A stretch of 64,000 bases of DNA, taken from contig JAGOAJ010000011.1 in assembly GCA_017983955.1 (NCBI GenBank), forward strand, positions 1 to 64,000, written 5' to 3'. Position 1 is the first letter of the stretch. Every line of letters starts with the position of its first letter. The stretch comes from Burkholderiaceae bacterium (GTDB lineage: Bacteria > Pseudomonadota > Gammaproteobacteria > Burkholderiales > Burkholderiaceae_B). The notes below the pieces were generated by a model. That model saw only the letters and a program-made list of their open reading frames with translations. It searched no databases and had not been told where the DNA came from. Below, piece after piece: positions 18,224 through 52,815 of this stretch. The translations under genes were made by a program, and so were the position numbers.

Positions 18224-18979
18224 CTACACTAATTTAGTTAGCACTGCCTTACGAGCCTGCGCTCGATACTGTTGTATTCGCTCTTTGAGGCCAGACCGTG
18301 CCGCCGATTGCACTAGTGCTTGTAAATCCTCTGCTAAAGTGGCTGGACCCTCGCCCGACGCAAAATATATACTTTGACGCGTCACAGAGTCTAGACGAAT
18401 AGAGCGCTCAGTCAAACGAGATAGCGCCGCTGACAAAGTTGTTGTGTCTATGCTTGCGGTTGCCAAACCGCTACTCAAAGCGTCTGTAGGTTCAATGTTA
18501 CAGCCACTACTTATCCAGTCACGTGCAAGATTGGTGCCAACCAAACGCGTCAAACGTCCAGTACCCAGTACCAGGCCGAAGGCAGCGCCTGGGAAGCACA
18601 GGGTGGCATCCCCTACCAGCCAACGCTGCTCACACGCAGCAAAAAGATCCGCCCCAGCTCCCATTATGCGGCCATGCCCTAAAGCTAGCGTCGTGAAAGG
18701 CGCTGCTCGAACTGACTGAAGCAGCAGCTCGATCCGTACGAATCGAGCCAACAAACTGTCATCATCCTCACTTTCTAGCTGAGACAAGTCAAAACCCGCA
18801 CAGAAGTGCCGCCCTTCACCAGCCAACACCAATAGGGTCGTACCATCTTGATAGGACCGATAGACAATCTCTTGAAGGGCCTGGACCATTTCACGAGATA
18901 AGCTATTCGCAGCTTCGGGACGATTAAGTGTAATACGCACCGTTGTACCAACACGCTGGATCGTTAGAGTGTTCACCAT
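18224..18979 (-). CDS. Enoyl-CoA hydratase/isomerase (crotonase) family, atypical active site
   Basis: A 251-residue crotonase-fold protein, last gene of the minus-strand CoA cluster. The oxyanion-hole segment GRHFCAGFDL is present. The two glutamates of classical hydratases are not conserved: GGCEL reads GAGADL (Glu to Asp) and the PEI-LG motif reads PGAAFG (Glu to Gly). Syn-hydration by the standard two-glutamate mechanism is therefore doubtful, and isomerase, hydrolase or retro-Claisen chemistry is possible. It lies 94 bp downstream of a CaiB-family gene. Confidence 0.82.
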   Translation of the reverse strand: MVNTLTIQRVGTTVRITLNRPEAANSLSREMVQALQEIVYRSYQDGTTLLVLAGEGRHFCAGFDLSQLESEDDDSLLARFVRIELLLQSVRAAPFTTLALGHGRIMGAGADLFAACEQRWLVGDATLCFPGAAFGLVLGTGRLTRLVGTNLARDWISSGCNIEPTDALSSGLATASIDTTTLSAALSRLTERSIRLDSVTRQSIYFASGEGPATLAEDLQALVQSAARSGLKERIQQYRAQARKAVLTKLV

Positions 18980-19073
18980 AGTCTGTCCACTACATCCGTC
19001 ACCACAGGTTTAAGCAACCATTCGTCCTGGACTATTAATTTCAGCAAGTTTTTATCGCTTTCCATAAACAGTG

Positions 19074-20243
19074 TCATTTCTCTGTAGTTATGGCAAAGCG
19101 GGCACGAACAGCGTCTGTATGCTCACCAAGCGCTGGGGGATTCTGACGGATTGGCAAAGTAGATCCGTTAACTAGCAAAGGGGACGCAAAAGTGCGAATC
19201 GTCTCACCTCCCGGTAATGTAATCGGCCGTATCCACTGCATATGCTCTACCTGTGGATCATTCAGCGCGGCCGCATAGTCATTAATGCGCGCGTGCGGAA
19301 CCCCGACTTTCTTGAAGGTTTCAATCCAATAATCTACCGGCCTTTTCTTAAAGCAGGCTTCAAGAATGTCTTTGAGCTCCACTTGGTTCTTCGCGCGATT
19401 GCTAGTCGTAAGAAAACGAGCATCAGTCTCTAAGTCAGGCCTATCAACCGCTATGCAAACCTCACTCCAAAGCTTCTGATTACCAGCTGCAATCGCAAAA
19501 TACCCGTCGGCGGCTACAAAGGCCTGATAGGGAGCATTACGCGGGTGGGCTGAGCCAAGACGCCCTGGACTTTTTCCGGTGCCAAAGAACTCGCTAGTCT
19601 GTAAAGCAGCAACCCCAAGCGTGCAGCCAAACATAGGGACGTCAACATGACCACCCGCACCGCCTGCTCGTACGCGGTTCAACATCGAAGAAATAGCAAA
19701 TGCTGCATATAGGCCCGAAGAAAAATCCGAAATAGGTACGCCGCACTTAACTGGAGCTCCATTAGGCTCTCCGGTAACGCTCATAACGCCCGCTGCAGCC
19801 TGCATAGTCAGATCGAATCCCCCTTCGTCTGCACGAGGACCAGACTGGCCATAAGCCGATATCGAACAATAAACAAGTCCCGGATGCTTCGAGGCGAAAC
19901 TTGCAAAATCCAAGCCCAACCGCTTCATGACTCCCGGCCGGTTATTTTCAATCAGAACGTCGGCGTCCATCACAAGCTGACGTGCCATTTGGCAGTCATG
20001 CTCATCTTTCAAATTGAGTACTACCGACTCTTTGTTTCGGTTCAACGATGCAAAATTCTCACTAAACCCATCGTTAAGAGGAGGCCATTGCCGGAGTGTA
20101 TCGCCACCTGGAGGTTCTATCTTGATGACCTCCGCACCCATATCTGCAAGCAACATCCCGCAGAACGGCCCGGCAGCGACCGAACAAAACTCGATGACCT
20201 TGATGCCCGCGAGAGGTAATTCATTTGGGTTAAGTTCGTTCAT
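19074..20243 (-). CDS. CaiB/BaiF family (class III) CoA-transferase
   Basis: A 389-residue class III CoA-transferase starting at MNELNPNELPLAG, with GCAGGG upstream; the longer frame adds 13 unlikely residues. The N-terminal GIKVIEFCSVAAGPFCGMLL and DVLIENNRPGVMKRLGLDF are diagnostic. The catalytic aspartate is in GVPISDFSSGLYA, matching the active Asp of formyl-CoA transferase. It would move CoA between carboxylic acids through enzyme-bound anhydride intermediates. It is one of three CaiB-type genes in this cluster, which implies at least two different acid/CoA exchange or epimerisation steps. Confidence 0.88.
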   Translation of the reverse strand: MNELNPNELPLAGIKVIEFCSVAAGPFCGMLLADMGAEVIKIEPPGGDTLRQWPPLNDGFSENFASLNRNKESVVLNLKDEHDCQMARQLVMDADVLIENNRPGVMKRLGLDFASFASKHPGLVYCSISAYGQSGPRADEGGFDLTMQAAAGVMSVTGEPNGAPVKCGVPISDFSSGLYAAFAISSMLNRVRAGGAGGHVDVPMFGCTLGVAALQTSEFFGTGKSPGRLGSAHPRNAPYQAFVAADGYFAIAAGNQKLWSEVCIAVDRPDLETDARFLTTSNRAKNQVELKDILEACFKKRPVDYWIETFKKVGVPHARINDYAAALNDPQVEHMQWIRPITLPGGETIRTFASPLLVNGSTLPIRQNPPALGEHTDAVRARFAITTEK

Positions 20244-20442
20244 TAAATACCCTGCAAAAAAAATTACGGCGTTAAACGGCATGGTTCAACGAATGATCAG
20301 AATGCCTCATCGACACCATTTCGAAACACTTCAGCATGCCAGCCTGACCATTGGCGACTGCCTATGCTTTTATAACGAACGTCGTCTACACCAGGTGCCC
20401 CTGAGTTCTACATTAACAATTTAGTGGCCCGACACGGCGCAG

Positions 20443-21477
20443 TCATAGCTGAGACCAAGTAGGTGTGCTTTTAATCGTCAAATTGCCGTGCTTGTCCTCT
20501 TGGAATATGCCAGCTGATAGATTATGAGGATGTTCAAGCGCCTCCGATAATGACAGGACGGGCGTTACGCACGCATCTGCACTTTCAAATATCGCGCACC
20601 ATTCATTTCTTGTTTTTTGCATAAAAGCATCAGAAAACTCGTTCGCAAGAACGTTCCAATTGGCGCGATCACTCCTACTTGGTAACTGGTTAATGTCTAG
20701 ATCCAATAACTCGACAAAGTACATATAGAATTTTTCTTCAAGCGCACCGACCGCCATGAAGCCGCCACATTGCGTCTTATATGTTCTGTACCACGGCGTT
20801 CCACCATCGAAGGCGTTTGATTCTCTTTCATCGACCCAGCTACCTTTTTGATAGTTATAAAAAACAAATGCCAGCTGTTTAAATATGCCTTCAAACATCG
20901 GCACATCCACGATCATGCCGATACCCGTTTCGCGTGCTTTAAATAATCCGCCAAGTATTCCTATAACAAGATTTGCACCACCCCCTCCGTAATCTCCTAT
21001 GATATTTAAAGGTACGCTTGGCTCACTTTTTTTACCGATAGCGTGTAAAGCACCTGTTAAGGATAGGTAGTTAATGTCATGCCCTGCTTTATTCGCGTAC
21101 GGTCCTTGGCGTCCCCAGCCAGACAGGCGTGCATACACAATTTTGGGATTAATTTCTCTGCATATCTGTGGCGATAGGCCTAAGCGTTCCATTACGCCCG
21201 GCCGCATGCCTTCTACGAGCACATCGTGTTTGGCAATTAATTGCTCTATGGTTCGCCTGTCATTGGCGACATTTACGTCCAGCTCCACAAACTCACGGTT
21301 TTTTGAAAAAATAGGGTGGTGCTTGACATCCAAACTACTACCCGGCCTAGCCACGCACGTGATTTCCGCACCCATTTCAGCCAACATGGACACTGCCCAC
21401 GGAACAGGACCTATAGACTGAAATTCAAGAACTTTTACATTTTCAAGCAAAGTAGACATACAATTATTTGCGCTCAC
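20443..21477 (-). CDS. CaiB/BaiF family protein, alpha-methylacyl-CoA racemase-like
   Basis: A 344-residue class III CoA-transferase-fold protein. Segments typical of the racemase branch are seen: AGHDINYLSLTGALHAIG, with the proton-transfer His, and NIIGDYGGGGANLVIGI, with the partner Asp. This pair matches the His/Asp dyad of alpha-methylacyl-CoA racemase. It would interconvert 2R/2S 2-methylacyl-CoA, so the pathway substrate may be alpha-methyl-branched (inference). The GTG start at 21477 overlaps the upstream gene's stop as GTGA. An internal ATG at 21459 is an alternative. Confidence 0.82.
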   Translation of the reverse strand: MSANNCMSTLLENVKVLEFQSIGPVPWAVSMLAEMGAEITCVARPGSSLDVKHHPIFSKNREFVELDVNVANDRRTIEQLIAKHDVLVEGMRPGVMERLGLSPQICREINPKIVYARLSGWGRQGPYANKAGHDINYLSLTGALHAIGKKSEPSVPLNIIGDYGGGGANLVIGILGGLFKARETGIGMIVDVPMFEGIFKQLAFVFYNYQKGSWVDERESNAFDGGTPWYRTYKTQCGGFMAVGALEEKFYMYFVELLDLDINQLPSRSDRANWNVLANEFSDAFMQKTRNEWCAIFESADACVTPVLSLSEALEHPHNLSAGIFQEDKHGNLTIKSTPTWSQL

Positions 21478-22631
21478 TTGGACATATGAAAGAGCTCGGC
21501 AATGACGTCATCCGTGTGCTCACCTAAGTCCGGTACCGCCATATCGTCAGTCCTCTCGTACAGCGTCCCGAGTTCATCACGAATTTTGAAAGGCACTCCG
21601 GTGCTGAGAAACGAAGAATCCTTGTTTTTTGCCTTAATCAATGTTTTTCTTTCTTGCAGGAACGGGTCTTGAATATATTCTTTGACGGTTCCGTAGGTGC
21701 TTGCCGGTACACCATTGCCTTGAAACAGCGTCTCGCATTCCTCGCTTGATCTTTTAGTCGTCCATTCTTCAATAATTTGATGAAGCTCAATGTCGTTACG
21801 CCAACGTTTTGCTTTGGTGTTAAACCTTTCATCCAGCGCAAGCTCCGGACGGCCTATTGTGTTACAGATACCAGAGAATGTGCGCTCGTTTGTCTCTACT
21901 GCCATCACGTACGAATCCATGGTGCGCAAAGGGCGGTAGCCTTTGCGATCAAAGTCTGGCTTGTATTGGGCTGAGGCAACTTCATAGATCAGCATGGAAA
22001 GTAGCGACTCATCAAGGGCAATATCAACATGCTTGCCCGTTCCAGTGCGTTCGCTGATCCTGAGTGCGCTCAGTATTCCGCTTACAGCCATGGAGCCAGC
22101 CAAAGCGTCAGCCACATAAAGGCCTGTTGCTGGTGGCGGCCCGCTCTCGGGTTGGTACGACATGAATGCGGAGTCATAACCGACTCCCGCATGAATGATT
22201 TGTGCAGTACATGGACGATCGCGCTTTGAGCTGTCTTGTCCATAACCAGAGATTGAACAATATACAATTGCTGGATTCAATTGCTTGACAGAAGCATAGT
22301 CAAGCCCCAGACGCGTCATTACACCGGGTCGGAAGTTTTCGACAAGGACGTCTGCTTGCTTAATCAAGCCTACAAGTATTTCGCGGTCTTTTTCGGTTTT
22401 TAAATCAAGCGCAACACTTCGCTTACCGACATTCAAGATTCCGAAGTAAATGCTGCGTCCGTCTTTGATGGGTTCGGCGCCTCGATTGCTGTCACCCCAT
22501 GGTGGTTCTATTTTGATTACATCAGCACCCAAACCAGCGAGAATCCGTGTGCAGTAAGGACCAGCCAGTACTGCAGAGAGATCCACAATGCGACAACCAT
22601 GTAGGGGTAATTCAGAGTGACTAGTAGGCAT
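21474..22631 (-). CDS. CaiB/BaiF family (class III) CoA-transferase
   Basis: A 385-residue class III CoA-transferase. Seen are CRIVDLSAVLAGPYCTRIL at the N-terminus, NFRPGVMTRLGLDYA, SISGYGQDSSKRDRP, and the catalytic-Asp region GLYVADALAGSMAVSGIL. It overlaps the racemase-like gene by 4 bp, so the two are translationally coupled. It lies downstream of the NMT1-type importer, and might activate the imported acid with CoA from a pathway product. The donor and acceptor are unknown. Confidence 0.88.
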   Translation of the reverse strand: MPTSHSELPLHGCRIVDLSAVLAGPYCTRILAGLGADVIKIEPPWGDSNRGAEPIKDGRSIYFGILNVGKRSVALDLKTEKDREILVGLIKQADVLVENFRPGVMTRLGLDYASVKQLNPAIVYCSISGYGQDSSKRDRPCTAQIIHAGVGYDSAFMSYQPESGPPPATGLYVADALAGSMAVSGILSALRISERTGTGKHVDIALDESLLSMLIYEVASAQYKPDFDRKGYRPLRTMDSYVMAVETNERTFSGICNTIGRPELALDERFNTKAKRWRNDIELHQIIEEWTTKRSSEECETLFQGNGVPASTYGTVKEYIQDPFLQERKTLIKAKNKDSSFLSTGVPFKIRDELGTLYERTDDMAVPDLGEHTDDVIAELFHMSK

Positions 22632-22693
22632 AGTGCAATATCTTTAAATTAACAAGGTTGGCCTGTATAGGCTCATATTAAATATGGCCACTT

Positions 22694-22715
22694 CATCAAA
22701 GTGGTGACTTTGATG
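22694..22715 (-). other. Inverted repeat downstream of binding-protein gene
   Basis: CATCAAAG (22694-22701) and CTTTGATG (22708-22715) flank a 6-nt loop in the 167-bp gap between the binding-protein gene and the CaiB gene. It has no U-tract on the transcript, so it looks more like an mRNA-stabilising hairpin or a protein site than a terminator. The gap holds no other feature I can support. Confidence 0.45.
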
Positions 22716-22798
22716 CAGCCTAGGGTGAACAATGACAACTTGCATAGCCATATATTCACCCCAGTAGCGCTGAGGCTTAATTTGACGGTCGGACGGAT

Positions 22799-23896
22799 CT
22801 ATTTATTAGATGAATAGGAGTTGGCGTCCGCCACGATTTTTTCGCGGTCAAAGTCGTTTGCTTCCTTAATCAAGCTCATATCAACAAAGTTCTTTGTGTC
22901 AAATTGCTCTTTAAGAATGCCCCCTTCATACAGCAAATCTGCTGCATCCTGTATTTGCTCACTAGAGGCGTAACCGTAATAATCCGTGCCTTTTACGGGC
23001 TCTATAAGCGGCAGTCGTGCCAGAAGCAGTGCTTTGGCCAGTGCCATCGCGGCCTCTTCATCATTGGCATTCTTTGGGCGCTGCAGTGGGTATTGCTTCC
23101 AATGCAAGCGCACAGCTTCTTCTGGATTCGCTTTTGCCCATACAGCGCTCTTGTACGTAGCTCGCAAGAACTTAACGAGCGTGTCTCTGTCTTTGGTTAA
23201 GGACTGTTCTCCCACAAGGTAGCCGCCCATAGCAGGAAGGTTGTTCAATTCGGACGGAAGCGCATTAAGGCTGCGTTTCAACAAGTGGCCAATAATAGTG
23301 TTGACCGAGTCCCATAGGGCAAAAGCCTGGATATCACCATTTTCATAGGCGACTGCGGCTTGGCTTCCCACTCCAACCGGCAACCACTTGATGTCCTTGT
23401 CTGGATCTAGCCCTGCTTTTTTTACAGCTAGGCGAGCGTGAAAATAAGAGGCAGACGCAAGGGATTGGACACCGACCGTTTTCCCCTTTAGATCTGCAAT
23501 CGATTTTATTTCGCTATCTTTGGGTACAGAAATTTCATAAATATCGCTATAAAAACCTATTATTCGCAAAGTTGGCTCTTTAACCATAGCTGGATAGAAT
23601 GCTGTCACGCCGGACACCGTCATGAGCGCTTGGTTGCCTGCAACAGCCTGAACACCTTGACCAGCCCCTTGTGTAGGCAGGATTGCTACTTCAAGGCCTT
23701 CATCCTTGAAGTAGCCGAGTTGGACGGGAAGAGATGTGTAAGACGCCGAGGAAACTGCAAAAGACGGATCCGTATAGGCGTAGTTCACCTTAACCGGGCT
23801 TTTGTTGTCAGCCCCATAAGCCTGACCACATGCAAAAATGAATAACGTGCTGGCAAATACGCTACACAGTGATTTTAGAGATACAGATTTTTTCAT
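22799..23896 (-). CDS. ABC transporter substrate-binding protein, NMT1/THI5 (TauA/SsuA) family
   Basis: A 365-residue periplasmic binding protein from the ATG of MKKSVSLKSL; GAGGG sits 8 nt upstream. The signal peptide runs through FASTLFIFACGQAYGAD. The mature part has the NMT1-family look: VQLGYFKDEGLEVAILPTQG, then DLKGKTVGVQSLASASYFHA. The family serves sulfonates, nitrate, pyrimidine precursors and aromatic acids such as phthalate. Ligand identity is unknown, but the position inside a CoA-enzyme cluster points to an organic acid. Confidence 0.88.
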   Translation of the reverse strand: MKKSVSLKSLCSVFASTLFIFACGQAYGADNKSPVKVNYAYTDPSFAVSSASYTSLPVQLGYFKDEGLEVAILPTQGAGQGVQAVAGNQALMTVSGVTAFYPAMVKEPTLRIIGFYSDIYEISVPKDSEIKSIADLKGKTVGVQSLASASYFHARLAVKKAGLDPDKDIKWLPVGVGSQAAVAYENGDIQAFALWDSVNTIIGHLLKRSLNALPSELNNLPAMGGYLVGEQSLTKDRDTLVKFLRATYKSAVWAKANPEEAVRLHWKQYPLQRPKNANDEEAAMALAKALLLARLPLIEPVKGTDYYGYASSEQIQDAADLLYEGGILKEQFDTKNFVDMSLIKEANDFDREKIVADANSYSSNK

Positions 23897-23921
23897 GTCT
23901 ACCACCCTCTGTTGTGATTAA

Positions 23922-24677
23922 TTATTTGTATTTGGTCATTCGCTCAAGAAGCACGAGCAATCCGTATGCAGTCATACCCATCAAAGAAAGAACAAGAAGC
24001 ACTGCATATACTGCGGCTGTATCTCCTAAGAAAGTCAGCTGCAAAATAAGGTATCCCATGCCAGCTTGCGCACCGACAAACTCCCCGACGATCGCGCCCA
24101 ACAATGCCACCACCACAGCTACGGTCAGAGATGGAAAAATATATGCGAGTGCCCGTGGCAAACGCAGATAACGAAACTCTTGAAGAGATGAAGCTTGCAT
24201 GGCGCGCAGCAAATCGATCTCGCCCTCATTAACAGATCGCAAGCCGGCTATCGTATTCACGAATATGGGAAAAAACGCAAGAATTGCCGCAATGACGACT
24301 TTGGGTGCTAAACCATAACCAAGCCAAGTGACCAAAATTGGAGCAATTGCAAGTTTAGGGAATGTCTGCAAAGCTAAAATGTACGGATAAAAGCTAATGC
24401 GCAAGGTGTCAACGAATGCAAAAACAGAGCCTATGATCAGAGCTGCCATTGCACCAAAAAAGAAGCCCAAGGCACCTTCTGTAGCCGTTACACCAATGTG
24501 ATGCCACCATTCCCCTTTTATTATTCCTACCGTGAAGTTTTCAAGCACCTCAGCCATATCAGGGAGTACTAACGGAGAGACAAGTTTCGAGCGATAAGCG
24601 ATTTCCCATAAAATAAGCATGGTTATCCCAACACTCACTGACAATGCAATACGAATGAATTTGTTATTGAAAGACAT
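23922..24677 (-). CDS. ABC transporter permease (TauC/SsuC type)
   Basis: A 251-residue inner-membrane permease with about six hydrophobic segments. The EAA loop, which contacts the ATPase, reads VNEGEIDLLRAMQASSLQEF. The start at MSFNNKFIRIALS is chosen because it places the first membrane helix near the N-terminus. A TTG at 24731 would add 18 residues and shorten the gap to the ATPase gene; neither has a clear ribosome-binding site. It acts as a homodimer with the ATPase and NMT1-type receptor on either side. Confidence 0.85.
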   Translation of the reverse strand: MSFNNKFIRIALSVSVGITMLILWEIAYRSKLVSPLVLPDMAEVLENFTVGIIKGEWWHHIGVTATEGALGFFFGAMAALIIGSVFAFVDTLRISFYPYILALQTFPKLAIAPILVTWLGYGLAPKVVIAAILAFFPIFVNTIAGLRSVNEGEIDLLRAMQASSLQEFRYLRLPRALAYIFPSLTVAVVVALLGAIVGEFVGAQAGMGYLILQLTFLGDTAAVYAVLLVLSLMGMTAYGLLVLLERMTKYK

Positions 24678-24747
24678 AGAAGAAACCAATAAAAGTTGTT
24701 GTTTCGAATTTTCTTTTGCGGTTAAAGCCAATCAAATGCAGTGGCAT

Positions 24748-25539
24748 TTACACAAACAAAGAGCTTCTGATTTCCTTTATATGTTCAAACAATATCGGTG
24801 ACTGTCGCATTAACGTGTCACGCGGCTGAGGCAACTTTATGTTGATATCCGCAAGGATCCTACCTGGACGTTCCGACATCACCACAACTCGATCGGACAT
24901 GTATACGGATTCGGGTATGCTGTGTGTGATAAAAATGACCGTTTTTTTTGTTTCGTCCCATATCCGCAGTAACTCGTCATTCATTGTCTCGCGTGTAAAC
25001 TCATCCAATGCGCCAAAAGGTTCATCCATAAGAAGAATGCTCGGGTCCGTAATCAGGGCCCGCGCGATGGCGACACGCTGCTGCATACCGCCTGACAACT
25101 CTGACGGGTAACGGTGGACAAAATCTTGCAAACCGACCATTTTTAGTAGCTCAAGTCCCTTGTCGCGCTTTTCTTTTGTTAATTCTTTTCTTATTTCAAT
25201 GGGAAGCAGTACATTGTCCAGCACCGTGCGCCAAGGGAGCAAAGTTGCCGCCTGAAACACAACGCCAATGTTGCGATTTGGTCCATTTATTGGGATGCCG
25301 TTTAGTGACAACTTGCCACCACTTATGCCGGTTAATCCACAAATAATTCGTAGAAGCGTCGACTTTCCGCAGCCACTGGGCCCTACGATTGAGACAAATT
25401 CGCCCGCGTCGATTCTGAGATCAATGGGGCCAAGTGCGTGTACATTTCCCGCTGAAGCGGTTTCATACACCTTTTTTAGAGATTCGACTTCAATTTGCGC
25501 TGTGGAACTCATGTTCACAATTGACTCCATTGTGGTCAT
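24748..25539 (-). CDS. ABC transporter ATP-binding protein (TauB/SsuB type)
   Basis: A 263-residue ATPase. Walker A is GPSGCGKST, the signature is LSGGMQQRVAIARAL, and Walker B is ILLMDEPFGALDE, followed by the H-loop FITHSIPESVY. The ATG at 25539 overlaps the upstream CoA-transferase stop codon (TAATG); the longer frame would run 120 bp into that gene. Coupling of a transporter ATPase to a CoA-transferase subunit shows that uptake and activation are co-expressed. Confidence 0.92.
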   Translation of the reverse strand: MTTMESIVNMSSTAQIEVESLKKVYETASAGNVHALGPIDLRIDAGEFVSIVGPSGCGKSTLLRIICGLTGISGGKLSLNGIPINGPNRNIGVVFQAATLLPWRTVLDNVLLPIEIRKELTKEKRDKGLELLKMVGLQDFVHRYPSELSGGMQQRVAIARALITDPSILLMDEPFGALDEFTRETMNDELLRIWDETKKTVIFITHSIPESVYMSDRVVVMSERPGRILADINIKLPQPRDTLMRQSPILFEHIKEIRSSLFV

Positions 25540-26285
25540 TACAGTATCTGGTTTTTTGCGAATACAGGGTAGACTTCCGCTACTTCGTTCTTCACGTAAG
25601 TCCGCAATAGTTCCAGCTCGGCGTCTGTGGGCTCGCCTGTTGTAGGAACAGTAGACGGGCACTCAAAGTCGAAACCAGTATTTTCTTTAATATCGTCCAC
25701 AGTGAACCCAGGATGCACCTCTTTTAATGTGAACTTGGCTTCTTTCTGGCAAAAGGTCATGACACATTTGCTAGTTACTAGTGCGATCGGGCCGCCTAAT
25801 CGATGTGCGTATTCTGGCAATACGCCGGCAGCACTAATAAAGTCAACCTTGGGCACAAGCACTCTTTTACTGTGCTCTGTTACGAACAAGATCGTTCGTA
25901 GGCCAACGTAATACAACAAGGATGTGCCAAAAGAGCCTGCAAATCGGACGTCGGATCGCGGGTAGTCCCCAATACCAACAAGGTTTATATTGCCTTGTCC
26001 GTCGATTTGGCCGCCACCGTAAAACTGGACGTCTATCATGCCCTTGCAGCCAAGGTCATACTGCTCCAGAATTCCACCGGTAAACAACAAGTTGTGCTTA
26101 ACACTACCGAGGATTGAGAGCCTGGGGCGTTTTTCGTTCCTTTTGTAGACCATCAATGCCGCTGAGGCAGGAATAGGCATAGCATTACCAATTTCAAAGC
26201 TTTGCGCGTCATCACAATATCGAGACAATACGCTGGCCAAAAATTCTGCTTCCGTATACTTAACTTCGTCTACTTGTGTTTTCAT
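25539..26285 (-). CDS. Class I CoA-transferase-like beta subunit (GctB/IpdB-like), no catalytic Glu
   Basis: A 248-residue partner of the gene at 26298. Aligning by eye to glutaconate CoA-transferase B gives clear matches: FYGGGQIDGQGNINLVGIGD for the enzyme's FIGGAQIDPYGNVNSTSIGD, and KENTGFDFEC for LENTGFDLDV. The segment with the catalytic glutamate (IIVESGLMD) aligns with LSILGSVKHN, so the glutamate is replaced. The pair may be a CoA-thioester hydrolase like the steroid-ring enzyme IpdAB rather than a transferase. It overlaps the ABC ATPase start by one base. Confidence 0.8.
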   Translation of the reverse strand: MKTQVDEVKYTEAEFLASVLSRYCDDAQSFEIGNAMPIPASAALMVYKRNEKRPRLSILGSVKHNLLFTGGILEQYDLGCKGMIDVQFYGGGQIDGQGNINLVGIGDYPRSDVRFAGSFGTSLLYYVGLRTILFVTEHSKRVLVPKVDFISAAGVLPEYAHRLGGPIALVTSKCVMTFCQKEAKFTLKEVHPGFTVDDIKENTGFDFECPSTVPTTGEPTDAELELLRTYVKNEVAEVYPVFAKNQIL

Positions 26286-26297
26286 CAGTTTTCCCTC

Positions 26298-27134
26298 TTA
26301 GCCCTTGAACACATACTGATTCAAATAATTGCGAAAATCCTTGGACGTTTTAGCGCTCTGCGCGTACATCGTCATGTGTTCAACATCAGTTGAGTGCTCA
26401 TTGCCCAGAAAAATCGGGTATGTGCCATGCTCGACTTGAGTGGTCGCCCGCAAGTAGAAGGAAGCGATGGTTGATGGTGCAAGCTTGGAGTCTTCAAGCA
26501 GGTTGCCGTCGTATAGCTTCTCGAAAGTTACCAATACGTTTTTTGCAGCTTGCGCCATTGCCTTAACCTCAAAGTTTTTACCGATCCAGACATTTCCGTA
26601 ACGGTCACCGTATCGCGCATGGAAAAGTAAAAATTCCGGTTGATACGCCGGTATCAAAACGATAGGGTCCACCCCTGTATCAAGATCGAAAGGATTGTTT
26701 ATGATCCTCCATTCACGGTGAACCTTTAGCACGTCAGAACCGAGCAAACCACGAATAGGCATAAACGGCAGACCTTTTTGGGCCGCCGCAATTGAGGCAT
26801 GAAAAGCGGGGCACGTTGTGTCAATTACTTTAAGCGTACCGGCTGTGATCGCTGCGCGAAATCTGGGCGCCAGCCCAAAATCACCCAGAATAATGCCGGG
26901 GCACTCTATGGTGTCGACCACGCCCGCACCAATTAATAGGTCACTGACATAGCCGGTCGGTGGTCCGCCTATGATTTTCAAATGCGTCTTCCCTTGCCGA
27001 ATAATTTCTCGCGCAGCCTCACCCGGTGACCCCCCGTAATCAGCAGGCAGTGCCAGCGTCGCGCCGTTCGGTATTAAATTTATAAGCTCAGACAAGCTAT
27101 CAAGAACAATTGAATCAATCGAATCTATATTCAC
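26298..27134 (-). CDS. Class I CoA-transferase-like alpha subunit (GctA/IpdA-like)
   Basis: A 278-residue alpha subunit. It has the N-terminal GATLALPADYGGSPGEAARE in place of the usual glycine-rich CoA site, and a later FLLFHARYGDRYGNVWIGK, resembling the conserved HxxxxDxxGN segment. It lies 12 bp upstream of the beta subunit on the same strand, so they form a heteromer. Homologues are glutaconate/3-oxoadipate CoA-transferases and the IpdAB hydrolase. The choice between transfer and hydrolysis depends on the beta subunit, which lacks the usual glutamate. Confidence 0.8.
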   Translation of the reverse strand: MNIDSIDSIVLDSLSELINLIPNGATLALPADYGGSPGEAAREIIRQGKTHLKIIGGPPTGYVSDLLIGAGVVDTIECPGIILGDFGLAPRFRAAITAGTLKVIDTTCPAFHASIAAAQKGLPFMPIRGLLGSDVLKVHREWRIINNPFDLDTGVDPIVLIPAYQPEFLLFHARYGDRYGNVWIGKNFEVKAMAQAAKNVLVTFEKLYDGNLLEDSKLAPSTIASFYLRATTQVEHGTYPIFLGNEHSTDVEHMTMYAQSAKTSKDFRNYLNQYVFKG

Positions 27135-27179
27135 GATGTTTCACCTCGATTACGAAAATATTTTGCAAATATGGCTTAG

Positions 27180-28310
27180 TTAAATATCTCGGGCGATAAT
27201 CTCTTTCATTATTTCATTTGTGCCCCCGAAAATTGAATAGACGCGGGAGTCAACCCAAGCCTTGCCAATCAAATAATCTGCCATAAAGCCATTGCCTCCA
27301 AAAACTTGTAGCAGTTCATCTAGAAGAGCAGTAACTTTTTCGGTCGCATTCAGCTTAACGATCGCAGCCTCGACACTGCTGATCTTTCCGCTCATATGCA
27401 CCGAAATGTAATGCGCAACCATAATTTTCAGCATTTCAGTCTGCGCTTTAACGTGTGCAAGCAAAAATTTCGTATTTTGAAAATCAAACAACGCCTGACC
27501 AAAAGCCCGTCTGTCTTTGGCATACGTAATTGTTTCGTCGAGCATGGCTTCCAATACAGCAACGGCCCGAATTGCAATTAAAAGACGCTCTTGAGGCAGG
27601 TTGTCCATCATGTGGAAAAAGCCACCGTCTTCGTTCCCAATTAAGTTTTCTTTGGGAACAATTATGTTTTGCATGGATAGTTCCGAAGTATCTTGAGCCG
27701 AAAATCCGATTTTATTTAACGGCTTCGATTTGGTTAGACCTTCGACGGTTGACTCTATCGCAATTAACGAGATGCCTTTCACGCCCTTTTGTTTATCAGT
27801 CTTGCAGGCTGTGACAATTAGGTCTGAATTAATACCATTACTTATAAAGGTTTTTTGACCATTTATCAGATACGTTGAGTCTTTAAGTACTGCTGATGTT
27901 GTGATGGCTTTTAGATCAGAGCCCGCGTTTGGCTCTGTCATAGCAATTGCGGCTATCAGTTCTCCGGATGCCATTTTTGGTAGCCACTTTTTCTTTTGTT
28001 TTTCAGTACCGAACTTGCTGATGTAGGGCGCTACCACCATTGAGTGCACGGGAAACCCAGGCCCTGTCGCATTTACTCGCATAAGCTCCTGAACAACGAT
28101 GGCCTCGTGAACAAAGTCGCCACCCGGGCCACCATACTCTTCAGGAACGCTGCAACATAAAAGACCAGCATCACCGGCCTTGCGCCAAACGTCGCGCGGT
28201 ACTATGCCTTGCTTTTCCCATTCGGGGTGATGTGGTGCTACTTCGCGTTCCACAAAACGACGAACTTGCACACGAAACTCTTCATGGTGATCTTCGTAAA
28301 TTGCTGCCAT
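27180..28310 (-). CDS. Acyl-CoA dehydrogenase
   Basis: A 376-residue flavoprotein, close to the standard family length and first structural gene after the IclR regulator. FAD/substrate motifs AMTEPNAGSDLKA and the C-terminal FGGTNEIMKEIIAR are clear. The medium-chain catalytic Glu position (YEGT) is Gly here, but a glutamate occurs in LPQERLLIA, the location used by isovaleryl-CoA and long-chain dehydrogenases. It should introduce an alpha-beta double bond in an acyl-CoA and pass electrons to ETF. Branched substrates fit the racemase-like gene downstream (inference). Confidence 0.92.
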   Translation of the reverse strand: MAAIYEDHHEEFRVQVRRFVEREVAPHHPEWEKQGIVPRDVWRKAGDAGLLCCSVPEEYGGPGGDFVHEAIVVQELMRVNATGPGFPVHSMVVAPYISKFGTEKQKKKWLPKMASGELIAAIAMTEPNAGSDLKAITTSAVLKDSTYLINGQKTFISNGINSDLIVTACKTDKQKGVKGISLIAIESTVEGLTKSKPLNKIGFSAQDTSELSMQNIIVPKENLIGNEDGGFFHMMDNLPQERLLIAIRAVAVLEAMLDETITYAKDRRAFGQALFDFQNTKFLLAHVKAQTEMLKIMVAHYISVHMSGKISSVEAAIVKLNATEKVTALLDELLQVFGGNGFMADYLIGKAWVDSRVYSIFGGTNEIMKEIIARDI

Positions 28311-28413
28311 ATCGCTCCCAGTATATTTCTGTTAGTTGTTCGCTTTCAATTTCCCGGCTATCTTTCCGTGCTCCCACTACATGTTTATATAAAACACGAT
28401 TTTTTACTTTATC

Positions 28414-29160
28414 TTAATCATCCTCACATCCCAACTGCGAGGATATTTTTTTCGATATTACTATTAATTCTTCTGTTATTTCTTTGGTCTTTTCTGGTGT
28501 AAATCGGTAAACAGGACCTGATAATCCGAAGCCCCATACGTTACCCAAACCATCACGTATAGATACTGCTATGCCATATATTTCCGATCGCCATTCACCG
28601 GCATTTATTGCGAACCCTTGCGTGCGAACCTGTTCAAGCTCTTGTTTTAATGACTCCAAGGTTTGGTGAGTGCGATTAGTGTGCGGTTCCAGTCGTGGAA
28701 TGCATAAATCGACATACGAGTTTTCATGCGTCGCCAATAACGCTTTGCCAGTAGCTACTGCATATGCCGGAGCACGTCCGCCAATTCTTGAATAAGCAAT
28801 AAGTGGGTGTATCCCGTCCATCTTGTCTATGTAAATTACTTCACTACCATCCAATATGGATAAGTGTATGGTTTCACCGAACTGCTTTAATAATTTGTAC
28901 TTGTATGGAGACAATATTTTTTTAATGTCAGTGCCATCCAAATGCCGGGCGCCAAGTGCGAGGATTTTTTTTGTACATTTGTACGTTCCGTCGTCATTCC
29001 GTTCTACATAACCGGTATAAATCAAGGTCTGCAGTGTTCTATGTATGTTGCTGCGACTCAGATCTAATCGACTGGTTAATGTCGCAAGCGTATTGTCCGG
29101 CTCACGCGATTGGGCCAAATATTCCAATACTCGCAATCCCTTAAGAAGTGTTTTATCCAT
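28414..29160 (-). CDS. IclR family transcriptional regulator
   Basis: A 248-residue regulator from the ATG of MDKTLLKGLRVLE; an ATG 63 nt upstream would add a polar extension. The N-terminal winged helix includes TLATLTSRLDLSRSNIHRTL, and the C-terminal effector domain includes YSRIGGRAPAYAVATGKALL, both characteristic. It is encoded just upstream of, and on the same strand as, the acyl-CoA dehydrogenase, and probably controls the whole 18.2-28.3 kb cluster in response to a pathway acid. Two inverted repeats upstream may be its autoregulatory site. Confidence 0.9.
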   Translation of the reverse strand: MDKTLLKGLRVLEYLAQSREPDNTLATLTSRLDLSRSNIHRTLQTLIYTGYVERNDDGTYKCTKKILALGARHLDGTDIKKILSPYKYKLLKQFGETIHLSILDGSEVIYIDKMDGIHPLIAYSRIGGRAPAYAVATGKALLATHENSYVDLCIPRLEPHTNRTHQTLESLKQELEQVRTQGFAINAGEWRSEIYGIAVSIRDGLGNVWGFGLSGPVYRFTPEKTKEITEELIVISKKISSQLGCEDD

Positions 29161-29272
29161 AATTACTGGTACATCCACTGACTGGTCCGGTGTGTGGCAT
29201 TTCGGCTGCCTCGGAGGATGCATGTTTGTGATTCATTTCTACGTCTGTCCTTTCGGTAGGGTAACTATTCTG

Positions 29273-29307
29273 TCCCACTATTTGGGATATGCAATCCATT
29301 AAATGGA
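29273..29307. promoter_or_regulatory. Candidate IclR operator: two inverted repeats
   Basis: Upstream of the IclR gene are TCCCA-N5-TGGGA (29273-29287) and TCCATT-A-AATGGA (29295-29307), both perfect, in an AT-rich stretch. Their centres are about 21 bp apart, two helical turns, which fits the tetrameric binding of IclR proteins. Assignment to this regulator rests on position and symmetry only. Confidence 0.5.
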
Positions 29308-29609: not shown

Positions 29610-30398
29610 GTGAACATCGAATTAAAAAATAAAGTGGTACTGATCACAGGTGGCAGCAAAGGGATAGGTCTGGCCTGCGCAGAAGCATTCGCTCGTGCGG
29701 GTGCACGTGTGGCAATTGCCTCACGCAACGCTGAAAACCTAACCGCAGCACAGCAGCACCTGGAACGCAGCGGCATTAATGTACATACCCATATGGCAGA
29801 TTTATGCGACGCTGATCTAGCCGTTAATTTGGTGGCAGACGTTGAAAAAGCATTAGGACCAATCGATATCCTGATCAATTCTGCGGGCGCCGCCAAGCGT
29901 TACCCGCCCGTCTCGCTGACACCACAAGCCTGGGTTGACGCGATGAATGCAAAATACTTCACGTATATAAATGCCATGGATGCTGCCCTGAAGGGCATGG
30001 TACAGCGCCGCCAAGGCGCAATCGTCAACATCATCGGCGCAGGCGGAAAAACGCCAAGTCCCGTGCACTTGCCAGGCGGCGCTGCAAACGCCGCATTAAT
30101 GCTGGCAACCACCGGTCTGGCTTCGGCTTGGGCATCACACGGCATTCGTATAAACGGCATTAATCCTGGGTCAACCAACACTGACCGCGTACAAGGCGCC
30201 ATTGACGCCGAAGCACAGCTAAGTGGCAAAACCGCCGATCAGGTTTTCGATGCAATGAAGCAGCGGATTCCGATGGGCCGGCTGGCGCAACCAGAAGAAA
30301 TCGCTAATGTTGCCGTGTTTTTGGCATCGGACCTGGCCAGCTACGTGACGGGGACTATCATCACCATGGATGGTGCGGCACACCCCTCTGTAGTGTGA
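29610..30398 (+). CDS. SDR family oxidoreductase lacking the Tyr-x3-Lys motif
   Basis: A 262-residue Rossmann protein. The cofactor motif VLITGGSKGIG and the NSAG motif are normal, as is the C-terminal GRLAQPEEIANVAVFLASDL. The catalytic YxxxK position reads GGAAN in HLPGGAANAALMLATTGLA, so both tyrosine and lysine are absent, and the usual serine is in a glycine-rich segment (IIGAGG). It may bind NAD(P) with a different mechanism or act as a non-classical lyase or reductase. The GTG start has TTTGGAG upstream. It converges on glmS, with 9 bp between them. Confidence 0.85.
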   Translation: MNIELKNKVVLITGGSKGIGLACAEAFARAGARVAIASRNAENLTAAQQHLERSGINVHTHMADLCDADLAVNLVADVEKALGPIDILINSAGAAKRYPPVSLTPQAWVDAMNAKYFTYINAMDAALKGMVQRRQGAIVNIIGAGGKTPSPVHLPGGAANAALMLATTGLASAWASHGIRINGINPGSTNTDRVQGAIDAEAQLSGKTADQVFDAMKQRIPMGRLAQPEEIANVAVFLASDLASYVTGTIITMDGAAHPSVV

Positions 30399-50345: not shown

Positions 50346-51230
50346 TTAGTTGGCTAGGGCGACACGCAGCTTCTTAAACGCAGCGGCTTCTACCTGACGA
50401 ACGCGTTCAGCGGAAATACCCAATTCTGCAGCGAGTTCATGCAAAGTCGCACCACCCTCGTCTTGCAGCCAGCGCGCCTGAACGATACGCCGTGAGCGTG
50501 GGTCCAGATCTTCGATGGCGTTGCTAAGACCTGAGCCATGCAAAACATCTGTAGCACGGCGATCCAACACCTGCATTGGGTCCTGCTCACCCTCATCAGA
50601 CAGCCACGCAATAGGCGCCCAAGAGTTTTCCTCGTCGTCGCCAGCGCCTTCCAGCGCCATTTCGCGGCCCGACATGCGGATTTCCATTTCACTGACGTCC
50701 TGAGGACGTACATTCAATTCCGTGGCGATATCATCAACCTGTTCGGGGTTGAGCGTAGTGCCATCGGGACGCATGCGGCGCAAGTTAAAAAACAGTTTGC
50801 GCTGCGCTTTAGTGGTGGCAACCTTCACCAAGCGCCAGTTACGCACGATATATTCGTGAATTTCGGCCTTGATCCAGTGCACGGCAAACGACACCAAACG
50901 TACACCGCGTTCGGGATCGAAACGCTTCACTGCCTTCATCAGGCCAATATTGCCTTCCTGGATAAGATCGGCGTGCGCCAAGCCATAGCCCAGATACTGG
51001 CGGGAAATAGACACCACCAATCGCAAATGCGAAAGTATCAGTTTACGGGCGGCCTCAAGGTCGGATTCATTACGCAAACGCTGACCCAGCTCCTGCTCCT
51101 GTTCGGGGCTTAGCATGGGCAGACGATTGACAGCGCTAATGTAGGCTTCTATCGTGCCTAAAGCACCAGGATTGGAAACTGCCAAGGCCAACTGTTGGTT
51201 GGACAAGGCCAAAGATTGGGTTTGAGTCAT
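50346..51230 (-). CDS. rpoH: RNA polymerase heat-shock sigma factor (sigma-32)
   Basis: A 294-residue sigma factor. Region 2 contains ADLIQEGNIGLMKAVKRFDP and VRLVSFAVHWIKAEIHEYI. The RpoH box is present as QRKLFFNLRR, which separates it from RpoD and RpoS. Region 4.2 has the helix-turn-helix LHELAAELGISAERVRQVEA. It directs RNA polymerase to heat-shock promoters. AAGGA lies upstream of the ATG. A CIRCE operator 46 bp before the start indicates HrcA control at the DNA level, in addition to any mRNA or protein-stability control known from E. coli. Confidence 0.97.
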   Translation of the reverse strand: MTQTQSLALSNQQLALAVSNPGALGTIEAYISAVNRLPMLSPEQEQELGQRLRNESDLEAARKLILSHLRLVVSISRQYLGYGLAHADLIQEGNIGLMKAVKRFDPERGVRLVSFAVHWIKAEIHEYIVRNWRLVKVATTKAQRKLFFNLRRMRPDGTTLNPEQVDDIATELNVRPQDVSEMEIRMSGREMALEGAGDDEENSWAPIAWLSDEGEQDPMQVLDRRATDVLHGSGLSNAIEDLDPRSRRIVQARWLQDEGGATLHELAAELGISAERVRQVEAAAFKKLRVALAN

Positions 51231-51275
51231 CGGCGATGGGATCCTTTTAAAGAAAACAAATGTCGAACTACTATA

Positions 51276-51302
51276 TTAGCACTGTGACATGCAGAGTGCT
51301 AA
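51276..51302. promoter_or_regulatory. CIRCE element (HrcA operator) upstream of rpoH
   Basis: TTAGCACTG (51276-51284) and GAGTGCTAA (51294-51302) are separated by exactly 9 bp. The CIRCE consensus is TTAGCACTC-N9-GAGTGCTAA, so 17 of 18 arm positions match. It lies 46 bp upstream of the rpoH ATG, in or near the promoter, where HrcA binding would repress. The other flank is the divergent DUF module, more than 200 bp away. Confidence 0.92.
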
Positions 51303-51512
51303 TACGCCATATGCATGTAGAAAGCAAATGACGACATAAGTTCCACACCACCGACCGCCTAGGGCTTCGGCATATTTCACTTTGCCGGGTTTCTGCCCAT
51401 CCCCAGCCGCAACAATCTGCACTAGACTAGCCTTTTACGTAACAAAAATTATCAATAGCTGTGATTTTGCAAAAAAGAGGAATGGGCTGGCATATGAGTG
51501 CAAGGAGGTGAA

Positions 51513-51968
51513 TTGAACGATATTCCTGAGCAAGAGGCCAGAGCACTTCTACAGTTAAGATACATATGCGAAGACTACGGTGAATGGGCTCCCGCAAAGG
51601 CATCTCCAGAGTCTCATCGACTCACGTGTGGACTGCTCGATGAGAGCGGTTCATCCGTCAGGATGTATGTAGAGCTTTTGGTGAAGGAGTCGCAGAAAAC
51701 CAACATCCATCACTATAAGTTTTCGGTCTTGCGACATAAGCCCTTTGAGAGCAGAATCTACCAACTAGAGATTCGCACATCTCCAAAGTCGCTAAAAGAC
51801 CTACATCAGCGCCCCCACGAACATATAGGTAATGCCAGGATTATTGGTGGCCCTGCATGGAGTAATTGGAGCTTTTATGATGTCTTGGCTCATTTCAGCA
51901 AACGGACTAATATAGAATTCAACCCCGACCTTGAAAGCCCACTGGACTTTAGGCTAAGGCCATCATGA
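51513..51968 (+). CDS. Uncharacterised protein, first gene of a two-gene accessory module
   Basis: A 151-residue soluble protein starting at TTG (51513), chosen because a perfect AAGGAGGTG lies just upstream; a GTG 15 nt earlier would place that site inside the gene. I recognise no family with certainty. It contains a histidine-rich stretch, KDLHQRPHEHIGNARIIGG, and a C-terminal WSNWSFYDVLAHFSKRTNIE, somewhat like small proteins of toxin-antitoxin pairs (DUF6978/DUF6516 type). It overlaps the next gene by ATGA. Base composition is more AT-rich than the flanking rpoH and nitroreductase genes. Confidence 0.65.
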   Translation: MNDIPEQEARALLQLRYICEDYGEWAPAKASPESHRLTCGLLDESGSSVRMYVELLVKESQKTNIHHYKFSVLRHKPFESRIYQLEIRTSPKSLKDLHQRPHEHIGNARIIGGPAWSNWSFYDVLAHFSKRTNIEFNPDLESPLDFRLRPS

Positions 51969-52714
51969 TCTGCACAGACATTTCCACTCTTCTCGGTTTC
52001 GCTTGCCATCCGCTGAGCAATGACGGTAGCGTAGCAATGATTCAAACTTCTTTCACCTTCCAAGATGGTGATCGGTTGCCTGTGTTCGTCGAAAAGGTTG
52101 GCAATAATGTTAGATTTTTTGATGACAATGAAGTTGTTTTTCATTTTCTAGGCAGAGGTCTAGGAGACTCGAAAGGTGGGCTTCGGACAAAATTCATTCA
52201 AAACGCCATTGCTCCTTACGGTCTATCCTTGACTGACGCAAATGTCATAGAGATTTGGGCAAACCAAAATCATTCCCAAGAGGCTTTCGCCAGATATATT
52301 AGTGGCCTTCTGGCCATCGCCCAGTGGGAGCATGAAAATCAAGGTGTAAGCACGGACTCCAGCTATCTTGTGGAAGAGGTCGCACTGTGCCTCGCCTCCT
52401 GGAAAAAAAACCACAAAATCACGCCATCTCCTTCGTTCGTTGGTATGTCAAAAACTAAATATTTACTCGATTTCGAAGTAGACGGAGAGGCTGTAATCGC
52501 AATCAAGCCACATCCTTACTCTGTGGGAAATGCATTAAAAAAGATGGTCGATATTGCCGGGCACGATCATGACGTAGTATTTAGAGTAATTATTGATGAT
52601 AGGGCTGATTATGACGCCGCAAAAACACAAGGGGTAATTTTGTCTAGCATGGCAACCATCATGCCCATGAGCAAGCTGATCGAAGTTTCGCACGTATCCG
52701 AAGCGGTAAATTAG
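51965..52714 (+). CDS. DUF1828-like domain protein, second gene of accessory module
   Basis: A 249-residue soluble protein. The N-terminal half fits the DUF1828 pattern: MIQTSFTFQDGDRLPVFVEK then RFFDDNEVVFHFLGRGLGD, and a helical LRTKFIQNAIAPYGLSLTD. The C-terminal half (from about residue 150, SKTKYLLDFEVDGEAVIAIK) may be the DUF1829-type domain that usually follows. Function is unknown. It is translationally coupled to the preceding gene by ATGA and closed by its own terminator, so the two form a self-contained cassette, possibly toxin-antitoxin or phage-defence related (inference). Confidence 0.7.
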   Translation: MICTDISTLLGFACHPLSNDGSVAMIQTSFTFQDGDRLPVFVEKVGNNVRFFDDNEVVFHFLGRGLGDSKGGLRTKFIQNAIAPYGLSLTDANVIEIWANQNHSQEAFARYISGLLAIAQWEHENQGVSTDSSYLVEEVALCLASWKKNHKITPSPSFVGMSKTKYLLDFEVDGEAVIAIKPHPYSVGNALKKMVDIAGHDHDVVFRVIIDDRADYDAAKTQGVILSSMATIMPMSKLIEVSHVSEAVN

Positions 52715-52735
52715 TAGCGACTCAATGCTTAGCTC

Positions 52736-52757
52736 AGCCCTCGCCGAGGGCTTTTTT
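52736..52757 (+). terminator. Intrinsic terminator closing the DUF1828 module
   Basis: AGCCCTC-GCC-GAGGGCT (52736-52752) followed by a run of T residues to 52757 is a textbook Rho-independent terminator. It lies 22 bp after the DUF1828-like gene and separates the module from the nitroreductase. Confidence 0.9.
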
Positions 52758-52815
52758 GTGCCCAAACAGGGCATGGCCTTCGCCCCTGAACTTACCGAAC
52801 TTTTCAAAACACACT

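Follow-up and report, generated by a model that had tools for sequence, protein, structure and literature searches.

An IclR-headed gene cluster with a possible role in uptake and CoA-dependent C-S cleavage in a Burkholderiaceae bacterium

Our analysis concerns a cluster of eleven genes in a 64,000-nucleotide stretch of DNA from a Burkholderiaceae bacterium (assembly GCA_017983955.1, contig JAGOAJ010000011.1, positions 1 to 64,000; hereafter the window). The cluster occupies 18224-29223 of the minus strand as eleven open frames of 248-402 amino acids each. In order of transcription, these encode an IclR-family regulator, an acyl-CoA dehydrogenase, the subunits A and B of a pair with the class I coenzyme A (CoA)-transferase fold, the ATPase, permease and NMT1-type binding protein of an ATP-binding cassette (ABC) importer, three class III CoA-transferase homologs (CaiB3, CaiB2 and CaiB1) and a crotonase. 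We give about an even chance to the reading that this is an acquired, mosaic operon under IclR control that serves uptake and CoA-dependent carbon-sulfur (C-S) cleavage of a sulfur-containing carboxylate, possibly one with an alpha-methyl branch. To our knowledge, CoA-dependent catabolism of sulfur acids has been worked out in few strains. The observation of the cluster is sound; the substrate, the reaction of the pair and the other catalytic assignments are inferred. An initial annotation, made from the sequence alone, had described eleven same-strand genes headed by IclR, with a layout leading from uptake to CoA chemistry and no match to a known pathway. Open frames and domain matches confirm the genes and support the layout, and we likewise found no known pathway that fits. 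The annotation's pathway guess was that the pair hydrolyzes the ring or a C-C bond of a branched or alicyclic acid; with medium confidence, we shift it towards organosulfur chemistry.

According to this proposal, the ABC system would import a thioether, sulfinate or sulfonate acid, and CaiB1 would form its CoA thioester, possibly assisted by a non-catalytic CaiB3. The crotonase would strip a beta sulfur substituent to give an acryloyl- or methacryloyl-type CoA. CaiB2 would epimerize an alpha-methyl-acyl-CoA, and the dehydrogenase would oxidize or reduce the carbon skeleton. A second C-S bond would be cut, by desulfination or dethiolation, by the A-B pair using Cys108 as nucleophile or acid.

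CaiB1, the crotonase and a recurrent dioxygenase

Relatives were gathered through CaiB1 alone, with neighboring genes ignored. An alignment-based scan of species genomes gave at least 520, from which the best 79 named loci (62-76% identity) were kept. These were placed in a 95-row table with nine plasmid loci (from the top of the plasmid listing or fetched earlier), L182-L186 (chosen for A', the counterpart of A), L166 (from the same genus) and the window. Left out were L036 (the same as L182), L167 (the same as L047) and G028, whose CaiB1 is cut by a contig end. Several of these loci are truncated or cover little sequence, so absences there carry little weight.

The most frequent other gene family at CaiB1 loci is a dioxygenase, which was found near CaiB1 in 68 of these best 79 of at least 520 loci; the crotonase was found in 50 and both in 46. 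Two dioxygenase copies tested belong to PF05995, and comparison with solved structures assigns the one at L039 to the 3-mercaptopropionate dioxygenase (3MDO) type, with E 1.5e-62 to PA2602; the others were counted by at least 42% likeness to the L039 or L036 copy. In a tree of CaiB1 from 36 hand-picked comparison loci, the 28-row clade that contains the window (99/94) carries the dioxygenase in 23 of its 27 other rows, versus 4 of the 9 comparison rows outside. A dioxygenase query matches 32 of 61 relative genomes. By a manual count, about 24 of these matches are strong (E 1e-50 or better), and strong matches occur in 15 of the 20 genomes with CaiB1 versus 9 of the 41 without (Fisher p 1.7e-4). 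The crotonase is found mainly in Burkholderiales; Reyranella loci have CaiB1 and the dioxygenase without it. The CaiB1-crotonase of the window belongs to a widespread, dioxygenase-linked lineage, and we infer that the lineage acts in thio-acid catabolism. 3-Mercaptopropionate-type dioxygenases, in turn, are regular partners of one CaiB lineage.

A few further neighbors of CaiB1 hint at acryloyl-CoA and sulfur. In G001, a genome of the same genus, CaiB1-crotonase is flanked by the acrylyl-CoA reductase AcuI (566 bits, cut-off 440), two Alcaligenes loci have a 63% homolog of this AcuI near CaiB1, and one Herminiimonas locus holds CaiB1, crotonase, IclR, Act (named by context) and Acd together. 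In Bradyrhizobium, an ABC importer lies beside CaiB1-dioxygenase-crotonase; the window's ATPase, permease and binding protein share 50%, 51.5% (over 196 residues) and 35.5% identity with it. Binding proteins of tripartite transporters occur in 54 of the 94 comparison loci, a family that in V. paradoxus TBEA6 includes a thiodipropionate binder needed for growth on that compound, according to the available sections of its description (PMC8102459).

TBEA6 is one of few strains known to use thiodipropionate (TDP). For it, the accessible text of PMC6370202 puts forward a CoA activation, followed in one of two variants by beta-elimination to acrylyl-CoA, and reports that growth on TDP requires two enoyl-CoA hydratases and that Ech-20 is stabilized by TDP-CoA. 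The TBEA6 cluster for 3,3'-thiodipropionate and 3-mercaptopropionate (mdo, act, acdA, ech-20 and ech-30), compared by descriptions, resembles the window's in its CoA activation (a CaiB-family Act for 3-sulfinopropionate) and in crotonases needed on a thioether, and mdo-type genes accompany CaiB1 relatives in 74 of the 94 comparison loci, act-acdA in one. In contrast, neither mdo nor an acdA orthologue was found in the window's genome, its cluster has an ABC importer instead of TctC, and it adds A-B, CaiB2, CaiB3 and the dehydrogenase.

We found no assigned pathway for the recurring module itself, one CaiB lineage with a 3-mercaptopropionate-type dioxygenase and often a crotonase and IclR (L047-L125), and a literature search combining mercaptosuccinate dioxygenase with CoA-transferase found no paper. 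A Rieske oxygenase alpha subunit lies near CaiB1 at L042, L046 and L038 (P. graminis, Bradyrhizobium Ash2021 and Caballeronia NK8); the P. graminis locus also has a formaldehyde-type dehydrogenase, hinting at demethylation. Within the same genus, L166:1529-5325 holds a racemase of the CaiB2 type, a further CaiB and two crotonases side by side, which recalls the adjacent ech-20 and ech-30 of TBEA6.

CaiB1 retains the catalytic Asp of class III CoA-transferases (Asp157, invariant in six sequences and presumably Frc Asp169). CaiB3, whose closest solved relative is YfdE, lacks this Asp and has Ala there; it may be a partner subunit of the kind found in heteromeric relatives. The claim that the crotonase lacks standard catalytic residues holds for all 64 family members aligned: each has Asp and Gly at the two positions that we take to be the catalytic Glu residues of enoyl-CoA hydratase (rat 144 and 164), while Arg79, Arg82 and Glu84 are conserved in 95% or more. 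The racemase-like CaiB of the initial annotation is CaiB2, whose AGHDINY and GDYGGG motifs align to an AMACR chain and keep the His/Asp pair, which we take to be MCR His126 and Asp156; CaiB2 homologs lie near CaiB1 in Acidovorax MR-S7 and G001. The dehydrogenase resembles, as had been proposed, the isovaleryl/long-chain type, with 2pg0 and human LCAD as its best solved relatives. Its QERL (240-243) aligns with that of 2pg0, the Glu presumably being the catalytic one at the IVD/LCAD position, and GGT is found near the C-terminus. Among the 61 genomes its best relatives reach 51-52%, and the four best examined lie beside acyl-CoA ligases or beta-oxidation genes, never beside CaiB1. Because of these neighbors, and because the dehydrogenase has no counterpart in the 94 loci, it and the racemase may be marks of a branched skeleton, in which case part of the initial annotation's idea would survive.

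The A-B pair and the residue at the Cys108 position

The closest solved relatives of A are GctA, IpdA and AibA. The residue that is E in IpdA structure 6co6 and A in 6coj, which we take to be the catalytic Glu105, aligns with Cys108 of A, so A lacks the IpdA Glu. B has Ser61 at the position of AibB Cys56 and the Gct Glu, where the alignment is loose, and lacks the Glu of the GctAB transferase. The meaning of this beta-subunit position (Glu54 of GctB) follows PMC7756340 and PMC5380842, and AibB Cys56 is not essential (PMC7756340). The pair thus lacks standard catalytic residues, as the initial annotation had it.

These residues bear on a reading along the lines of that annotation, in which a branched or alicyclic acid is imported, CoA-activated and dehydrogenated, and the crotonase and the pair hydrolyze its ring or a C-C bond, much as EchA20 and IpdAB do in steroid breakdown. 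EchA20 and IpdAB hydrolyze steroid rings D and C, as described in the available text of PMC5380842. The kinship of A to IpdA, the intact racemase motifs of CaiB2 and the LCAD/isovaleryl-like dehydrogenase all fit such a route, and A-B shares with IpdAB the fold, by sequence homology, and the lack of a transferase Glu. We nevertheless regard it as unlikely and no longer the first choice, since A and its close relatives have Cys at the IpdA Glu position and the CaiB1-crotonase module has the dioxygenase nearby in most loci. The cluster also lacks steroid genes and a thiolase. What stands is a possible alpha-methyl group, through CaiB2.

A dicarboxylate route seems somewhat less probable again. 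Here CaiB1 would transfer CoA from succinyl-CoA to a glutarate-like acid, the dehydrogenase would form a glutaconyl-type CoA, A-B would decarboxylate it as AibAB does 3-methylglutaconyl-CoA, and the crotonase would hydrate the product. The best NCBIfam match of CaiB1 is indeed succinate-glutarate CoA-transferase (301 bits, under its cut-off of 750), and AibA and AibB are homologous to A and B, share their fold by sequence homology and lack the transferase Glu. However, AibA has Gly at the Cys108 position and AibB has Cys56 where B has Ser61, the retention of Cys or UGA across distant clades (below) suggests chemistry at a thiol, this route does not explain the dioxygenase link, and the crotonase lacks both hydratase Glu residues.

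A census of the Cys108 position in alignments of fetched homologs, where some loci are counted twice, gave Cys in 49, Glu in 9, an in-frame UGA in 4 (two genes), His in 4 and others in 4. Cys is found in the window and the A-B-CaiB triplets of Rhodobacterales and Diaphorobacter; in the A' pairs that 7 of the 94 comparison loci carry no more than about 5 kb from CaiB1; and in coenzyme-M alkene operons, at all four plasmid loci examined (L031, L189, L190 and L191, from M. chubuense NBB4 with two plasmids, Nocardioides JS614 and Xanthobacter Py2). The triplets (Rhodobacterales plasmids, Diaphorobacter) are the closest named relatives found (A 37-46%, B 44-52%), but their CaiB is Act-like and not CaiB1, and their importers and other enzymes differ. 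In the coenzyme-M epoxyalkane operons, the Cys-type pair also has CoA activation nearby, a nucleoside-diphosphate-type CoA ligase directly after the pair in L031 and L189 and several genes further along in L190; the gene after the pair of L191 is annotated just as CoA-binding. Unlike these operons, the window's cluster has CaiB proteins and no coenzyme-M genes. The available text of PMC11507031 treats the role of the A-B pair in these operons as just predicted, and the steps from coenzyme-M adducts to acetyl-CoA in ethylene oxidizers as mostly so.

The Glu-type pairs whose neighborhoods were surveyed occur in other settings: a second A-B pair of the host genome in an apparently branched-chain-type ABC operon (contig C33:17115-17780, L037), one beside sugar-type ABC genes in Azospirillum and one beside a hydrolase and a short-chain dehydrogenase/reductase (SDR) in Simplicispira; L019, L020 and L024 are further Glu-type matches. 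In the tree of A, taken as unrooted, all Cys and UGA rows lie on one side of a branch (85/81), and the window's A belongs to a clade of nine rows (100/99), with the two UGA genes as its sister group (98/96).

The UGA lies exactly at the Cys108 position in G040 and G047, genomes from other families of the same order. Beyond it the frame stays open over about 190 residues, some 160 of them alignable to triplet A, and this UGA fits, and probably encodes, selenocysteine (Sec). Both genes share a hairpin, GGCCCA-GGC-UGGGUC, with its loop about 24 nucleotides past the UGA. As a selenocysteine insertion sequence, its fold energy is no better than that of shuffled sequences (z -0.58 and +1.24), and codon identity within it (5 of 6, versus 90 of 186 overall) is a weak signal (P 0.09). 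No tRNA-Sec was found in about 0.75 Mb of G047 (4.6 Mb) or 0.08 Mb of G040, sel genes not being searched. A plasmid search with the UGA-type A gave no closer relatives, no further UGA was seen among the fetched regions, and a phage search gave one weak match. UGA was also considered within three dioxygenases and rejected, as TGA was not in the aligned frame in any. Our literature searches found no earlier report of a selenoprotein of the A type; in the available text of a 2026 review of prokaryotic selenoproteins, glutaconate is absent and the three mentions of CoA name other proteins (PMC13188914).

We propose tentatively, with a chance clearly below even, that A-B represents an unrecognized branch of the CoA-transferase fold, of a Cys/Sec type, which acts on sulfur-bearing acyl-CoA thioesters and breaks their C-S bonds by dethiolation or desulfination, with Sec as the catalytic residue in some bacteria. 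Such cleavage would be needed in 3-mercaptopropionate, thioether and coenzyme-M alkene pathways, and Cys108 of one heterodimer would bear on both sulfur-acid catabolism and coenzyme-M alkene pathways. The known desulfinase was found at E 1e-100 in 2 of 399 genomes sampled from the order (the best few candidates per genome were scored). Given this rarity, another enzyme may perform desulfination where the dioxygenase occurs without it. We see the Cys/Sec-type pair as the most interesting part of the cluster, one not visible from the window alone. In L182, L183, L184 and L186, a protein of about 520-550 residues with an alike N-terminus recurs beside A'-type clusters; the copy in L182, the one tested, matches PF13454 (FAD/NAD(P)-binding).

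Evidence against C-S cleavage and synteny of the full set

Several observations weigh against uptake and C-S cleavage of a sulfur acid. The 3MDO protein query had 0 matches in the host genome (94% complete), where PF05995, the CDO family, was also not detected (a B. subtilis control was positive), and no AcuI above the cut-off was found there. If the chemistry is that of the relatives, the step after sulfur release is therefore missing. The absence of a dioxygenase makes sense if the acid enters the cell as a sulfinate or sulfonate, or if the group to be released can leave unoxidized. No crotonase was found in the stretch examined at 29 of the 79 loci, so the CaiB1-dioxygenase link is tighter than that of CaiB1 with the crotonase, and CaiB1 might act on the dioxygenase product instead. 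A' lies near CaiB1 in just 1 of the 79 loci gathered without regard to neighbors. Cys-type pairs are not uniform, since a Glu lies near the transferase position in three of the four B subunits from coenzyme-M operons (LVEGAT; LVAGAT in Py2). AibA, a decarboxylase with Gly at the Cys108 position, sits on a long branch within the Cys side of the tree. The racemase and dehydrogenase fit branched acids equally well, and ABC importers of the Ssu/Tau-type family also carry sulfur-free substrates. Finally, among the matches listed (the best 25 for crotonase and ATPase), no protein of the cluster passes a curated NCBIfam cut-off, so none is sulfur-specific by that standard.

An orthologue of the desulfinase AcdA was found in 0 of the 61 genomes, host included, at E 1e-80 with a query that works elsewhere; the closest AcdA-like protein of the host shows 34-36% identity. 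The idea that A replaces Acd, argued from mutual exclusion, was rejected: 8 rows with A and 16 with acs share 0 among 95, which chance alone gives with P 0.21.

Synteny was scored at 38-40% identity over 70%. The part that the initial annotation expected might be conserved, the IclR/dehydrogenase pair, is not the conserved one. CaiB1-crotonase-IclR is shared with comparison loci, A-B in 7 and CaiB2 in 2, with the dehydrogenase in 0 of 94 and no counterpart of CaiB3 either. The nearest gene order, in G028, runs IclR, AMP ligase, A, B, an ABC importer of another type and CaiB1 to the contig end, with a dioxygenase on a separate contig. That the full eleven-gene set occurs in 0 of the 94 loci, that the host lacks the dioxygenase and that CaiB3 lacks its catalytic Asp would all fit a decaying or patchwork island, made of transferred pieces of several pathways with no single working route. 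We find this the least probable of the alternatives, as all eleven frames are open and tightly packed, with two stop-start overlaps.

Architecture, acquisition and neighboring genes

The features are listed in Table 1. Both overlaps named by the initial annotation are present: GTGA (21474-21477) joins CaiB3 to CaiB2, and TAATG (25537-25541) joins B to the ATPase and places the ATPase start at 25539 (ATG, 263 residues).

The region had been described as AT-richer than its flanks, suggesting transfer. Its GC content is 0.470, versus 0.543 on the left and 0.551 on the right, and none of 153 overlapping 11-kb flank segments falls below 0.527, so the cluster lies under all of them. The GlmS-side flank is syntenic up to GlmS with G001, the sole same-genus genome met in our searches, and the genes diverge in the 5.4 kb beyond. 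A has no match anywhere in G001, whose CaiB1-crotonase locus is on a different contig and is 63% (CaiB1) and 38% (crotonase) identical to the window's copies; those of Pusillimonas UBA6240 are nearer (76% and 60%). In the CaiB1 tree, the window groups with Pusillimonas and Advenella (91/98), with G001 outside the 28-row clade. The low GC, the synteny limited to the flank, the more distant G001 copies and the tree placement make horizontal acquisition the simplest reading and support the transfer suggested earlier.

Table 1. Features of the cluster, the adjoining gene and the UGA-type relatives of A
Feature	Position	Strand	Basis
IclR-family regulator, first gene	28414-29223	minus	NCBIfam KdgR/PcaR-type matches, under cut-off
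Acyl-CoA dehydrogenase, LCAD/IVD-like	27180-28310	minus	Pfam; solved relatives
A, class I CoA-transferase-fold alpha subunit, Cys108 at IpdA Glu position	26298-27134	minus	PDB matches, alignment, tree
B, beta subunit without CoA-transferase Glu	25539-26285	minus	PDB matches GctB, AibB, IpdB
ABC ATPase, Ssu/Tau/Sao type, start corrected	24748-25539	minus	domain and family profiles
ABC permease, SaoP/SsuC type	23922-24731	minus	family matches under cut-offs
NMT1/SsuA-type periplasmic binding protein	22799-23905	minus	PF09084 7.6e-23; SsuA_fam under cut-off
CaiB3, class III CoA-transferase homolog, Ala at catalytic Asp position	21474-22631	minus	Pfam, alignment
CaiB2, alpha-methylacyl-CoA racemase-like, GHD and GD motifs kept	20443-21477	minus	PDB MCR/AMACR E 1e-83
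CaiB1, class III CoA-transferase, catalytic Asp157	19074-20282	minus	Pfam, alignment, tree
Non-canonical crotonase, Asp111/Gly131 replacing two catalytic Glu	18224-18979	minus	Pfam, alignment
Divergent SDR gene beyond IclR, possible unproven partner	29610-30398	plus	PF13561/PF00106
UGA-type A gene	L187:9921-10799 (UGA 10227)
UGA-type A gene	L188:9994-10875 (UGA 10300)

The SaoA/SaoP names, Sao being presumably the selenocysteine-assisted organometal system, are taken as ABC family likeness only, because the matches are under cut-off. The cluster's IclR is 47% identical to that of the G029 locus and mostly 35-45% to the IclRs of CaiB1 loci.

The initial annotation had reported neither a thiolase nor a 3-hydroxyacyl-CoA dehydrogenase. 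The first holds within the cluster; the second is qualified by the SDR gene that adjoins IclR, so an enzyme of that type is possible next door. The SDR reached no NCBIfam cut-off among the best 25 of its 224 matches, and its GC content (0.545) is like that of the flanks. A second low-GC stretch of the window lies at 50346-53517 (0.506; 0.476 in 51001-53000).

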